From Acidobacteriota bacterium (GTDB lineage: Bacteria; Acidobacteriota; Vicinamibacteria; Vicinamibacterales; UBA823), in the NCBI GenBank assembly GCA_002730735.1, contig PCAU01000003.1, positions 13,728-77,727 of the forward strand: a stretch of 64,000 nucleotides of DNA. The letters run 5' to 3'. Shown here piece by piece: positions 13,156 through 18,478 of this stretch (positions are counted from its first letter, which is position 1; every line of letters starts with the position of its first letter). The notes under the pieces were generated by a model. It was not told the origin of the DNA and made no database searches. It saw only the letters and a program-made list of their open reading frames with translations. Made by a program: the position numbers and the translations under genes.

Positions 13156-14127
13156 TTACTGCGGTCGGATTTTCGAAAGTAAATCCAAGGCCTGTCTCTT
13201 CTGTGCCGAGTCATTCGGGGAAAGCTCAACGAACCTTTCAAAATCGTCAGCCGCCGGGTCGTAGTTCTCTTCTTCGCCGTCAGCCAACTGTCGATTGGCC
13301 TGCACCCGAGCCATCCCCCGGTAGTAATACGGCAACGCGGTACGTGACGACCGCCTAATCGCAACGTCTAGAACCCGAATCGCATGGCCATATTCCTCAC
13401 GCTCCATCAGCGTGTTCGCACTGAGGTCGATAAACGCCGCCATCCAATCGCTAGGTAACGGCCGACCGAGCCCATTAACGTAGCCATGCATCCGCTGATA
13501 CTGACCCGCATCACCAGCCAACATCATCGCCTGAATCCCAATCTCGACCGGAAGCCCTGGTTCCGCCGGCGGCGCCACATCGGCCCACCACGCAAGCATG
13601 GCGTCATATTCATCCATTGCCTGTGGCAAATTACCCTCCGCCTTGTAAGTCTCCGCGACCGCGCCATGCAGATTCACGTTGTTCGGAAGAGAGAAAAGAA
13701 GCATCTGGTACTTTTCCCGTGCGCCACTATAATTGCGCGCTGCGGTATCCACCGCCGCCTGGGAAACCAGGTCCTGCATAGCCGGAAGCACGAACTCAAG
13801 GTCTTCGTTGCCACGCGGGAGAACCTCAATTTCACGCTGGGAAATAATGTATCCAAGGTGGGTTCCGTTGACGGTGATCTGCCACATCCCGGGCTTCAAA
13901 TCATCAAGGTCGAAATCGCCGTCGCCACCGGCAAATTCCTGGTTCGGCCCCGTACCGGTTTCCAGGTAGACCGCTGTGACTGTGCTACCGGACAAGCCCT
14001 CTCCCGCAGGGTTGGTCACCGTGCCGTCCAAATCGATCCGTCCCTTCCAATCTTGACCGTTGACCGCCACTGGCACTGCCAACACAACAGACAGGACGAC
14101 CATCCACCGTAACGCGTAATCCTTCAC
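13156..14127 (-). CDS. Secreted carboxypeptidase-regulatory/TPR protein (paralogue 1)
   Basis: 323 residues from a GTG at 14127; the open frame continues upstream to 14238 but only this start places the signal peptide (KDYALRWMVVLSVVLAVPVA) at the N-terminus, and GGGGGGG lies just before it. Residues 25-115 form a Cna-B/carboxypeptidase-regulatory-like beta-sandwich (DGTVTNPAGEGLSGSTVTAV...GDFDLDDLKPGMWQITV). The rest is helical TPR-like (YSGAREKYQMLLFSLPNN, ALPYYYRGMARVQ). Two paralogues of the same layout lie at 20888 and 22042. Such proteins are common in Acidobacteriota and may act as periplasmic scaffolds. A strong terminator follows at 13091-13126. Confidence 0.75.
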   Translation of the reverse strand: MKDYALRWMVVLSVVLAVPVAVNGQDWKGRIDLDGTVTNPAGEGLSGSTVTAVYLETGTGPNQEFAGGDGDFDLDDLKPGMWQITVNGTHLGYIISQREIEVLPRGNEDLEFVLPAMQDLVSQAAVDTAARNYSGAREKYQMLLFSLPNNVNLHGAVAETYKAEGNLPQAMDEYDAMLAWWADVAPPAEPGLPVEIGIQAMMLAGDAGQYQRMHGYVNGLGRPLPSDWMAAFIDLSANTLMEREEYGHAIRVLDVAIRRSSRTALPYYYRGMARVQANRQLADGEEENYDPAADDFERFVELSPNDSAQKRQALDLLSKIRPQ

Positions 14128-14265: not shown

Positions 14266-14457
14266 TCAGGGCGAGACATCTACTTGCACATGGGCGTTCG
14301 TCCAGCAACATTGGAATCCGCCTCTGGTGCCAGATGAATCGTTCGCCTGTGCTCGTAGGATATATACACCTGGGGGCGCTAAAGGTAACGGTCGTACCGG
14401 TCTCACCGGTTGCCTCGTCGGTTTCCGGTCGGGGTTGAATCGCTAAGTGTATGCGCC
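14266..14457 (-). pseudogene. Frameshifted C-terminal relic of an FQCCWTN-type secreted protein
   Basis: Read on the minus strand, one frame encodes TGETGTTVTFSAP and then runs into a five-C run (14372-14376); one frame over, the text continues PGVYILRAQANDSSG, then GGFQCCWTNAHVQVDVSP and a stop (14266-14268). Removing one C joins the two parts into TFSAPGVYILRAQANDSSG. I recognise this ending (TFSAPG-Y-LR-ANDSSG...FQCCWTN) from a conserved family of large secreted acidobacterial proteins. Only about 60 residues remain, there is no start codon, and the intact gene at 14472 abuts it. A sequencing error could explain the frameshift but not the missing N-terminal part. Confidence 0.6.
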
Positions 14458-14471
14458 GGAAGTCGAACGAA

Positions 14472-15275
14472 CTAGGATGAAACCCACCTTTTCATCTGCC
14501 TCTCATCCTCACTCTGACCGCGAAACGGACGCGTTAGAAACAGGCCCATCTTCTTAAACGCCTTTGCAGTTGAAACACTCACTTTCGCAACACCCTTGGC
14601 AACCGACGTGCTCACTTTCGCAACGCCCTTGGCGACCGTGGTGCTCCCTTTCGCAACGCCCTTGGCGACCGTGGTGCCCCCTTTCGCAACGCCCTTGGCG
14701 ACCGTGGTGCCCCCTTTCGCAACGCCCTTTCCGACTGCATTAACCGGACGGGCTAAAACTCTCCACCTAGACGGGTCATCAGCAAATGAGTCGAACTCGC
14801 TGACCGGAGGAATCAGCGGTCCGATAGTCGACAGAGCGTCCCGAGTCGGCCAGCGCGCGGCAGGCCGGTGAGCCACCAGCCTCTCATCAAGCACTGGGCC
14901 AGGTGGCACGATCTCGTGAGGCGCCCACTCAATCGCAACCGGCGAAAGAACTCTTGGGGACAAAACCGACTGAAGGGGGCTTGGAGGCGGCGGGGGGACC
15001 ACAATGCCTTCGATCGACGGGTGCGGAAGACCTTCCCGGCCATCAGCCGATGTCGTGGGACCAAGCCCGAGCACAGCAGGCAGAGCTGACAAAGCCCGGT
15101 CGACCACCACGGGTGGCAGCGTGGCCAACACCGTTACTGTACCGGCGAGCAGGACAACCCACCCAAGCAGGGACACCCTGGAACCACGCCGTTTCCGCGA
15201 ACCGTCTCGATTCAGCATCCTTGGAGGAAAAACGCCTACCCGTATTATCGGAAAGGATACACGAAGCCGTAGCAC
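14472..15275 (-). CDS. Single-pass membrane protein with 11-residue VAKG repeats
   Basis: 267 residues from a GTG at 15275; an ATG at 15218 (residue 20) is an equally good start, and neither has a clear ribosome-binding site. A basic stretch (RDGSRKRRGSR) precedes one membrane helix (about residues 36-55, LGWVVLLAGTVTVLATL). A Pro-rich linker follows (VVPPPPPSP, PPGP). Residues about 178-245 consist of 11-residue repeats of the type GGTTVAKGVAK (five to six copies, the last ones degenerate), then a basic tail. No known domain is recognised. The periodicity suits an amphipathic 11/3 helix that could lie on a membrane. The gene lies between the relic at 14266 and the TonB-dependent receptor. 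Confidence 0.6.
   Translation of the reverse strand: MLRLRVSFPIIRVGVFPPRMLNRDGSRKRRGSRVSLLGWVVLLAGTVTVLATLPPVVVDRALSALPAVLGLGPTTSADGREGLPHPSIEGIVVPPPPPSPLQSVLSPRVLSPVAIEWAPHEIVPPGPVLDERLVAHRPAARWPTRDALSTIGPLIPPVSEFDSFADDPSRWRVLARPVNAVGKGVAKGGTTVAKGVAKGGTTVAKGVAKGSTTVAKGVAKVSTSVAKGVAKVSVSTAKAFKKMGLFLTRPFRGQSEDERQMKRWVSS
14583..14733. repeat. 33-bp tandem repeat inside the VAKG protein gene
   Basis: Units of exactly 33 bp begin at 14583, 14616, 14649, 14682 and 14715 (plus-strand view, each starting TTTCGCAAC); the first two differ at several bases, the next two are nearly identical, and the last is partial. A more degenerate unit precedes at about 14550. Each unit encodes one 11-residue repeat. 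Confidence 0.95.
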
Positions 15276-15500: not shown

Positions 15501-15541
15501 AAAAAACGGGGCGGGCTGGGAACATCCCAGCCCGCCCCGTT
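15501..15541 (-). terminator. Strong terminator of the TonB-dependent receptor gene
   Basis: A perfect 14-bp stem (15507-15520 with 15526-15539), extended by two A-T pairs, with loop AACAT, is followed on the minus strand by a run of T residues (A run 15501-15506). It lies about 20 bp past the stop codon at 15563. Confidence 0.95.
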
Positions 15542-15562: not shown

Positions 15563-18478
15563 TTAGTACGCGTAGCGTAGGCCGATTTGGAGCTGCCGTG
15601 GCAGTCCATTATTCACGAGCGTCCGGAGAATCAGATAGGTGCTGCTTCTCCGTTTGTCACCAGACGGTGCATTGAAGTTGGAATTGTTGGTCAGGTTGAT
15701 GAAGTCAACATAAGCCTCCAACGTATCCGCATTCGGCATCTCCAGCGTATAGCCAGCACGCCCGTCGAGCTGGAAGTACCGCGGCCCAACGCCACCGTTA
15801 CGGCCACCATCATAGTTAACCGTGTAGGAATCCGTTCCCGAGCCCGAATAGGTCCCGGCCGCCAACCACTCGTCGTTCGCGGTGCCGTTCTGGTTCGTAT
15901 CCAAGGTGCTGTCGAGCAGCGAGAAGCGTGCTCCACTCCGGACCCGCACGATGCCGCTCACCCGCAGACCACCGGTGCCAGGCACAGCAACGGTTGTGTT
16001 GGCCACGAGGTTATGCCGGCGGTCGAAGTCCGTCGGTCCCCAGTTCGAACCCAGATTCAGGTCTCCGCCAACCTGGGTATACACGGACTGGGCGTCACCT
16101 TGGCGAGTGTTGCCTCGGGTATTCCCTAGGGTGTAGGAGATGCGGAAGCGGTAGTTGTTGCTGAACCGCTTGTCTAACGACACCTGCAATGCATCGTGGT
16201 TGATTGATCCACCATTGAGGAGTTGATAGACGTCATCGACGTATGTCGAGTTAGGCCGCTCAATCTTCGCCGTCCGCGCCGTGCTGACGCGGCTGGGCTG
16301 GTTGTGATTGTGCAGAATCAGCTGAGCGCGTTGCATGACACGGATGTAGTCCATGCTCAACGCCATATTGTTAGCTATCTGACGCTCAAACCCGAATGAC
16401 AGTTGGTCGGCGTAAGGGTTCTCCCGGGCCGCATTGTCAAATCGGATATTACCAGCGTTCAGCACCTTCGACCCTGGTGGGTAGAGCGCATCAATAACCG
16501 CCCAATTGACCGTTGGCCCGTCTTTCAGATAGGCAGCGGTTGGCCGCAGACCACTCGACGGCCCTGGGTCGACGCCGTCCAGTGGCAGATTCACGTTGAA
16601 CGAATCGTCGTACATCTGCTCACCGAAGACGTTATCGATGTGGGTGACGCGGAACTTCTGGTAGAAACGACCCAATCCACCCCGTAGCACGGTCCGTCCG
16701 TCCTCATCAAGGACATGCGAAAAACCGAGACGTGGCGCGAGGTTGTTCTTGTCAATCGGATAAATCGTGGAGCTCACCGCCGCACCGTAGAACTCGTTGT
16801 CCTCGTTCGGCGTTGGAATGATCTCCACGTCATACCGCACGCCGATACTCAACGTCGTCCGGTCGTTCAGCTGCCACTTATCCTGCGCGAAGCCACTGAG
16901 AACGGTTCCCGTCATGACGTAGTGCTGGTTGTTCGGCACCTGAATCGACAAACGCTCGGGGTAGGTGGAGTAGTCCGACGCATTGAAGTCCTTGTTCGTG
17001 TCGAAGATAAACCGCCCGTTCCGACGTCCGTTGGAGTTGTAGTTCAGGTTCATGTAGCGCCACATAACACCGAATTTAAGGTCGTGGTCACCATTCTTGT
17101 CCGGGATAAACACCGAGAACTGGTTTTCTGCGTTAAGTGTCCAGTTGATCCGACGGAACGCCGTGTTGAGGGTGCCACCAGTCCAGTCCAGGAAATTAAG
17201 TTGTGGCGCCTCGGTTTTCTGCGCCTTTGGTGGCGAACCAAAAGACTCCTCAGTCGAGCCCCAGTGCAGGTCTTCGTAAACTTCACCAAACCTCAGCACG
17301 TTGACTTTGTTGTTCCCGATGACTGAGTTGATTGACCCACCGGCTGCCCAGTCGTGGTCGTGCTCATGCTCCGCGCTGCCGATGCCCCAACTCGTGGCTG
17401 CGTGAGTCGATGGGGACGTTTCATACAGCCAACGGCCTCCCCACGTATTGTTCGCATTGATCTGATGGTCGCCGCGGGCAAAGAAGTTCCACGGTCGCAC
17501 TGCTTCGATCTCAGCGCGGTTCTGGTCCGGCCGGGACGGGATGTTCACCGTCACACCCGTATCGAGAATCGGCCGCTCGAGGCTCCAGAAGAAATGCAGC
17601 TTGTCTCTGAGAATCGGGCCACCAACGGTGAATCCCAACTGCTTCTCCTGCGTGTCCGGCTTCACCAGATCCTGCGAGGCAACGAAGTAGTCCTTCGCCG
17701 TCATCTGATGCCCCTTCACGAAGGCAAACAGGGCTCCATGAAACTCATTCGTTCCCGACTTCGAAACAGCGTTGAGCACGCCACCCGAAGCGAGTCCGAA
17801 CTCGGCGTCAAACTGTCCGGTGAGAAGCTGGAACTCCTGCACCGCTTCGATCGGAATCCGTGCCTGCGCGCCGGCGGAGCCACCCAAGTGGTCATCGTCG
17901 TTGCTGGCACCATCAAAGTTGTAGGCCACATTCGAGGAGTCCTGGCCGTTAACCATGATGGAGTCCGCTGCGAAGGAGGAAGTGGACCCGGTCGCGACCA
18001 CTCCAGGGACCAAGTCGAGATATCCGGTGAAGTTCCGGTTGAACGATGGCGTATCCAGCAACTCTTGCTGCTGAACGTAGCCGCCGACTTCCTTCGAAGT
18101 CGTGTCAACCAGTGGAGCCTCAGCGGTAACGGTAATCTCTTCCTCGATACCGCCCACCGTCAACTCAACGGTGAGGTTGAATGAAGACCCGACCGTCAAT
18201 GGAATATCCGGTCGGATGTAGCGCCGGAACCCCGGCAACTCTGCCGTTATTTCGTAGGTGCCAGGAGCCATAACCGGGAAGAAGAAAGAGCCGTCAACGT
18301 TCGCCACGGTCTCTCGAAACTGCCCGTTATCCTGATTGGTCGCCACAACGGTCACACCCGGAAGGGCGAGACCTTGGTCATCAACAACCTCCCCGCGTAA
18401 CTCCGAACTAGCATTCTGAGCGGTAGCCGTTCCGGCCACGAGCGAAATCGCAACAACGAGAATTAATAGCCGACGCAT
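15563..18478 (-). CDS. Oar-like TonB-dependent outer-membrane receptor
   Basis: 971 residues. Signal peptide 1-20 (ending ATAQ); residues about 25-110 form a carboxypeptidase-regulatory-like domain (GEVVDDQGLALPGVTVVATNQ); then EEITVTAEAPLVDTTS leads into the plug (QQQELLDTPSFNRNFTGYLDLVPGV, AVQEFQLLTGQFDAEFG) and a long beta-barrel ending in an aromatic residue (IGLRYAY), as outer-membrane proteins do. GGAGG stands 7 nt before the ATG. Acidobacteriota and Bacteroidota encode many such Oar/SusC-like receptors for peptides, glycans or chelates; the substrate is not readable. The flanking gamma-glutamyltransferases and TPR proteins suggest peptide-like ligands. A promoter is seen at 18736-18765 and a terminator at 15501-15541, so it is probably monocistronic. 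Confidence 0.92.
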   Translation of the reverse strand: MRRLLILVVAISLVAGTATAQNASSELRGEVVDDQGLALPGVTVVATNQDNGQFRETVANVDGSFFFPVMAPGTYEITAELPGFRRYIRPDIPLTVGSSFNLTVELTVGGIEEEITVTAEAPLVDTTSKEVGGYVQQQELLDTPSFNRNFTGYLDLVPGVVATGSTSSFAADSIMVNGQDSSNVAYNFDGASNDDDHLGGSAGAQARIPIEAVQEFQLLTGQFDAEFGLASGGVLNAVSKSGTNEFHGALFAFVKGHQMTAKDYFVASQDLVKPDTQEKQLGFTVGGPILRDKLHFFWSLERPILDTGVTVNIPSRPDQNRAEIEAVRPWNFFARGDHQINANNTWGGRWLYETSPSTHAATSWGIGSAEHEHDHDWAAGGSINSVIGNNKVNVLRFGEVYEDLHWGSTEESFGSPPKAQKTEAPQLNFLDWTGGTLNTAFRRINWTLNAENQFSVFIPDKNGDHDLKFGVMWRYMNLNYNSNGRRNGRFIFDTNKDFNASDYSTYPERLSIQVPNNQHYVMTGTVLSGFAQDKWQLNDRTTLSIGVRYDVEIIPTPNEDNEFYGAAVSSTIYPIDKNNLAPRLGFSHVLDEDGRTVLRGGLGRFYQKFRVTHIDNVFGEQMYDDSFNVNLPLDGVDPGPSSGLRPTAAYLKDGPTVNWAVIDALYPPGSKVLNAGNIRFDNAARENPYADQLSFGFERQIANNMALSMDYIRVMQRAQLILHNHNQPSRVSTARTAKIERPNSTYVDDVYQLLNGGSINHDALQVSLDKRFSNNYRFRISYTLGNTRGNTRQGDAQSVYTQVGGDLNLGSNWGPTDFDRRHNLVANTTVAVPGTGGLRVSGIVRVRSGARFSLLDSTLDTNQNGTANDEWLAAGTYSGSGTDSYTVNYDGGRNGGVGPRYFQLDGRAGYTLEMPNADTLEAYVDFINLTNNSNFNAPSGDKRRSSTYLILRTLVNNGLPRQLQIGLRYAY

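Follow-up and report, generated by a model that had tools for sequence, protein, structure and literature searches.

The minus-strand gene described here most likely encodes the orphaned tail of a BlaI-M56 protein, an inner-membrane anchor whose cationic helix would be adsorbed on lipid, and we give this reading as a whole a probability of about 0.72. It is close to certain that it arose from a receptor protease of the BlaI-M56 (BlaR1-type) kind, as the C-terminal half of that protein with the last transmembrane (TM) helix and the periplasmic tail; the periplasmic topology, the lipid binding and the cellular role of the protein, taken jointly, stand at about even odds. The gene lies in the window, by which we mean the whole 64-kb stretch of DNA analyzed, and its features are as follows:

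14472..15218, minus strand: coding sequence of the orphan tail protein, 248 aa; the ORF is open to GTG 15275, with ATG 15218 preferred
15111..15179, minus strand: TM helix, residues 14-36, after SRKRRGSR (hydropathy; AF2 helix 14-33; alignment to the M56 protein of genome G005)
14766..15110, minus strand: Pro-rich linker, residues 37-151 (115 residues, 19% Pro), predicted unstructured, containing VPPPPPSPL
14523..14765, minus strand: C-terminal amphipathic segment W152-F232, 81 aa, i.e., 37 ancestral residues plus 44 (4 x 11)
14568..14732, minus strand: five 33-bp / 11-residue units, GKGVAKGGTTV, AKGVAKGGTTV, AKGVAKGSTTV, AKGVAKVSTSV and AKGVAKVSVST
14475..14522, minus strand: extension C-terminal to the conserved Phe, RGQSEDERQMKRWVSS

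The ORF claimed at 14472-15275 in the earlier note is present, on the minus strand; translation likely starts at ATG 15218 and not at GTG 15275, because genome G002 carries an in-frame stop four codons 5' of the equivalent ATG. The 248-aa product runs from SRKRRGSR through one TM helix, the Pro-rich linker and the five 11-residue units to a short C-terminal end, and the single membrane helix followed by a Pro-rich linker noticed earlier was borne out by hydropathy, AF2 and composition. When the window protein was modeled alone, AF2 performed poorly (pLDDT 47): besides the TM helix it returned one helix, at residues 200-225 and of low confidence. Searches with the window protein gave no Pfam family at E <= 1, and in the PDB no sequence matched at E <= 10.

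The key to its origin came from the sister genus g3, where the same tail (E 1e-16, 36%) forms the C-terminal part of ORFs of 509-611 aa in genomes G005 and G007. These relatives contain a Peptidase_M56 (BlaR1) domain (PF05569, E 1e-26 to 1e-25), and a BlaI gene (PF03965, E 1e-30) lies directly upstream of the M56 gene. The alignment with the window protein spans the last TM helix and the tail. Moreover, the flanking order DsrE, cytochrome c, TPR is common to the tail locus of the window genus (g1), a marine Acidobacteria genus, and the BlaI-M56 locus of g3, and therefore the tail gene occupies the place of the BlaI-M56 pair. The AF2 model of the G005 protein (15-row alignment) showed an M56 core with pLDDT of about 90, a TM helix at 299-323, a disordered stretch covering 324-443 and a C-terminal helix spanning 445-488, and its best PDB folds were BlaR1 cryo-EM entries. 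The earlier statement that no bacterial family of this type was known thus does not hold, as homology and synteny identify the tail as the C-terminus of the BlaI-M56 (BlaR1-type) subfamily of this order.

The comparison with BlaR1/MecR1 and BlaI/MecI should nevertheless be drawn with care. The window protein aligns with the last TM helix and periplasmic C-terminus of such receptors, and its relatives are BlaI-M56 pairs; however, a Pfam search found in it no HExxH...ExxxD metalloprotease domain (PF05569), and no BlaI partner is encoded nearby. It is homologous to the C-terminal part of M56 proteins, yet it is no M56 member by the defining domain. Furthermore, whereas BlaR1 ends in a class-D beta-lactamase-like sensor, the window C-terminus is a disordered linker followed by an amphipathic helix; no domain of that penicillin-binding type was found, and the AF2 model of the relative has disorder and one helix there. 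By alignment, the window TM helix is the equivalent of the last TM helix of the M56 protein, for which an N-in, C-out orientation is expected. The last TM helix of BlaR1, alpha-10, leads to an extracellular C-terminus (PMC9834060), so that the window tail is expected in the periplasm.

When the order was searched with the full G005 protein, BlaI-M56 proteins were recovered in several families, and 15 were aligned. BlaI lies immediately 5' of M56 in all 15, and all 15 proteins end alike, with a TM helix, a disordered Pro/Ala-rich linker and a C-terminal amphipathic helix. The subfamily tail follows the motif W..A..AG.A(I/V)G...A..TA.....G.....F, which the window protein fits with F232 as its Phe; this Phe is invariant (15/15 M56 tails) and often the final residue. 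A radical-SAM gene stands 3' of M56 in 15 of 16 loci, and the three tested with Pfam each gave a Radical_SAM plus a B12-binding match. Against NCBIfam, the radical-SAM genes scored below every cut-off, the nearest models including the lipid-related HpnJ and rSAM_ladder_B12, far below cut-off. The subfamily profile reaches the C-terminal helix inside this order only, matches elsewhere in the phylum stopping before it. A reading as a broad family was discarded: of 162 genomes of the order, the tail profile matches only 8, and among these the contigs G004 C48 and G133 C223 look like window-genus DNA binned elsewhere; the GTDB contig set contained five tail loci, all in marine Acidobacteria MAGs. 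A profile built from the tails of other families gave the window protein only a weak match (E 5e-5), and a score was obtained for the reversed C-terminus too (E 0.001); the link to those families therefore rests on the G005/G007 bridge. In the literature, open-access text held no description of such M56 tails.

We then considered how the tail came to stand by itself. The M56 domain is absent from all g1 and g2 genomes, including the same-species genome G040 (97% completeness), and PF03965 (BlaI) gave no match in G000 and only a weak, partial 28-bit Penicillinase_R match in G040, on another contig. Hits at G000:C8 and at G000:C3:75721 were likewise weak and partial. In g2, the genus of G004, the orphan tail still has the radical-SAM gene next to it; g1 has lost this gene. 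The fission-point sequences (MLNRHGTHRRR in g1, LDRNVTTRRR in g2, ILRGDRTIARR in g3) are equivalent in g1 and g2, as if a single truncation had occurred in an ancestor of both. The orphan tail of g2 (L023 8523-9083) has no ATG, GTG or TTG start nearby, and a CTG there is preceded by GGAGGG. Regarding the helix itself, eight of the measured tails have 37 residues from the Trp to the Phe; the distance is 48 in two others, G002 has 70, and the window protein and G003 have 81, the longer values being 37 plus 11, 33 and 44; four further tails, with 30, 33, 52 and 58, do not follow 37 + n x 11, and three more are unmeasurable in this way. Relative to the ancestral 37, the helix of the window genus has gained 33 or 44 residues, three or four times 11, which we read as 11-residue steps inserted within an existing helix so that its hydrophobic face stays in register.

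Tandem Repeats Finder reported positions 14578-14729 (period 33, 4.6 copies, 94% matches) as the sole tandem repeat in the window. In the 11-residue register there are five KGVAK units, three of them with GGTTV or GSTTV, and a degenerate unit adjoins, so that the "five to six" units counted in the earlier note were right. The near identity at the DNA level that it noted stands within the window; between species, the repeats show many synonymous changes (dS 0.30-0.54) and low dN, and the amino-acid pattern is therefore held by selection and not by recent duplication alone. As to repeat number in relatives, it varies: five KGVAK units in the window species and G003, four in G002, G133 and the G004 C48 contig, and among window-genus sequences every change in number is a 33-bp step that keeps the frame.

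The hydrophobic moment of the repeat segment has its maximum at 98.5 degrees per residue, a real 11/3 amphipathic pattern; when the eleven positions were shuffled, the observed moment was reached in only 1-3% of trials. Its value is 0.35 over the repeats and 0.41 over W152-F232, within the range listed for alpha-synuclein (0.30) and Plin3 (0.35) in Table 1 of PMC5889406. The high Gly content (18%) and the beta-branched residues Thr and Val reduce the helix propensity, a point against a lipid-adsorbed helix. The units share with alpha-synuclein, Plin3/4 and CCT-alpha the 11-residue repeats, the 11/3 pattern, the range of moments and a weakly hydrophobic Thr/Val/Ala/Gly composition with Lys; unlike these eukaryotic proteins, the window protein has a TM anchor and a Pro-rich linker and is expected in a bacterial periplasm, and while the eukaryotic 11-mers are of mixed charge, its repeats contain no acidic residue. 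Homology to synuclein, LEA proteins or perilipins was rejected, given the empty Pfam and PDB sequence searches. Of the synuclein/LEA-type helix suggested earlier, the amphipathic pattern thus survives and the kinship does not: the likeness is convergent.

Taken together, these data can be arranged in the following scheme. The ancestral arrangement was a three-gene cluster of a BlaI repressor, an M56 protease with a tail, and a B12-radical-SAM enzyme, the tail being a disordered Pro/Ala linker of ~120 residues and then an amphipathic helix of ~37 residues up to the conserved Phe. In intact systems the tail is presumably the sensor, because it stands where BlaR1 has its beta-lactam sensor; by analogy, the tethered helix may sense how a lipid surface or an envelope component is faring, and the signal would be relayed through the last TM helix to the protease, to BlaI and to the radical-SAM gene. 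This BlaI and the protease domain were lost, most likely in the ancestor of g1 and g2, at the same point just before the last TM helix, leaving a small separate gene; the window genus later lost the radical-SAM gene as well, and its helix was extended in complete 11-residue units with the 11/3 phase kept. As the signalling chain is gone in the window genus, the tail, if working, works alone: the inner-membrane anchor and long linker would keep the helix on the periplasmic side, and with its positive charge the helix may adsorb to, or coat, an anionic lipid surface there. A bolder generalization, which we regard as tentative and rather doubtful, is that a receptor-protease family uses a tethered synuclein/perilipin-like 11/3 helix as a periplasmic membrane-state sensor in place of a folded ligand-binding domain, and that the window genus has turned this helix into a membrane coat that stands by itself and is lengthened by repeats.

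Amphipathic 11-residue repeats are best known from eukaryotic lipid-surface proteins, and they are now tied to a bacterial BlaR1-type signalling family. Moreover, the loci form an ordered series, from the intact BlaI-protease-enzyme cluster, through tail plus enzyme, to the tail alone with a helix growing 11 residues at a time. Should the helix bind membranes, proteolytic signalling by the BlaI-M56 subfamily may read membrane state and not an antibiotic, and the conserved radical-SAM enzyme would be a probable target gene of that signalling.

The same anatomy could serve another purpose. A Pro-rich linker of 115 residues is in principle long enough to span the periplasm, and a helix devoid of acidic residues could bind the inner leaflet of the outer membrane or peptidoglycan instead of the inner membrane, making the protein an envelope spacer. 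However, a Pfam search found no outer-membrane- or peptidoglycan-binding domain in the window protein, and in the relatives the tail is part of a receptor protease; we consider the spacer role unlikely.

A lower probability still is given to decay: the BlaI-M56-radical-SAM operon would be falling apart, the gene would be what is left of it, almost or entirely without function, and its repeats would have arisen by slippage. The operon that shrinks step by step from g3 through g2 to g1, the slippage-prone nature of 33-bp tandem units and the g2 copy without an ATG, GTG or TTG start all agree with decay, but the pattern of substitutions does not. Within the genus, the tail gene is conserved at 78-100% identity; four homologous, diverged window-genus sequences keep the frame with zero in-frame stops, unit number changes in frame by 33 bp, and substitutions concentrate at third codon positions. 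In the same comparison, dN/dS was 0.21-0.35 for the whole gene, comparable to that of functional neighboring genes (0.05-0.28), and fell to its lowest, 0.06-0.18, in the repeats. Given the frame kept in four diverged sequences and the low dN/dS, the tail gene is real and under purifying selection, strongest in the repeats, and the claimed ORF is thereby confirmed as coding. A non-coding or antisense-coding reading was excluded: each antisense frame is interrupted by stops (2-7), and it is the minus-strand frame that agrees with the codon-position pattern. Finally, a cytoplasmic, histone-H1-like Lys/Ala-rich tail binding nucleic acid or another polyanion would account for the net charge of +16 over the 81 residues of W152-F232 and their complete lack of acidic residues, but it is highly improbable given the basic stretch and a TM helix homologous to the last one of BlaR1-type proteins, whose C-terminus lies outside (PMC9834060), a hydrophobic pattern that follows the 11-residue period strictly, two of its positions being always V, and the absence of a Pfam match.

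The surroundings of the orphaned receptor tail in the window comprise:

15563..18478, minus strand: TonB-dependent receptor-like outer membrane protein (PF25183, Pfam), upstream neighbor, outside the system
15505..15541, minus strand: terminator-like site, a 17-bp GC-rich stem-loop plus T run, 3' of the TonB-receptor gene
14372..14437, minus strand: remnant of gene X (66 bp), left by a deletion of ~2.5 kb relative to G003
13156..14121, minus strand: CarboxypepD_reg + TPR protein, downstream neighbor and syntenic anchor with the sister genera (Pfam, synteny)

Since a strong terminator-like hairpin separates the tail gene from the TonB-receptor gene, it is probably transcribed from a promoter of its own. 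The TonB-receptor neighbor, and the single N-terminal TM helix followed by a Pro-rich stretch, recall TonB and other TM-anchored Pro-rich periplasmic proteins; however, the neighbors differ in the sister genera, and a TonB-like protein was rejected, as a Pfam search found no TonB C-terminal domain. The ~2.5 kb between the TPR and tail genes in G003 (L020 7632-10118) is missing in the window species and in G040.

Two contigs, G004 C48 (L022) and G133 C223 (L047), have a gene content near-identical to that of the window genus, yet are binned in MAGs of other genera, which is probably binning contamination. The order's other M56 proteins (L061-L089) carry varied C-terminal modules, e.g., HEAT-like repeats, TonB-like ends and carboxypeptidase-regulatory-like modules, a diversity that we read as a modular sensor slot. 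In addition, the M56 tail at L101, cut by the contig end, contains an 11-residue duplication (ADGGTAIARIS ADGGTAIGRKS), possibly an independent expansion.
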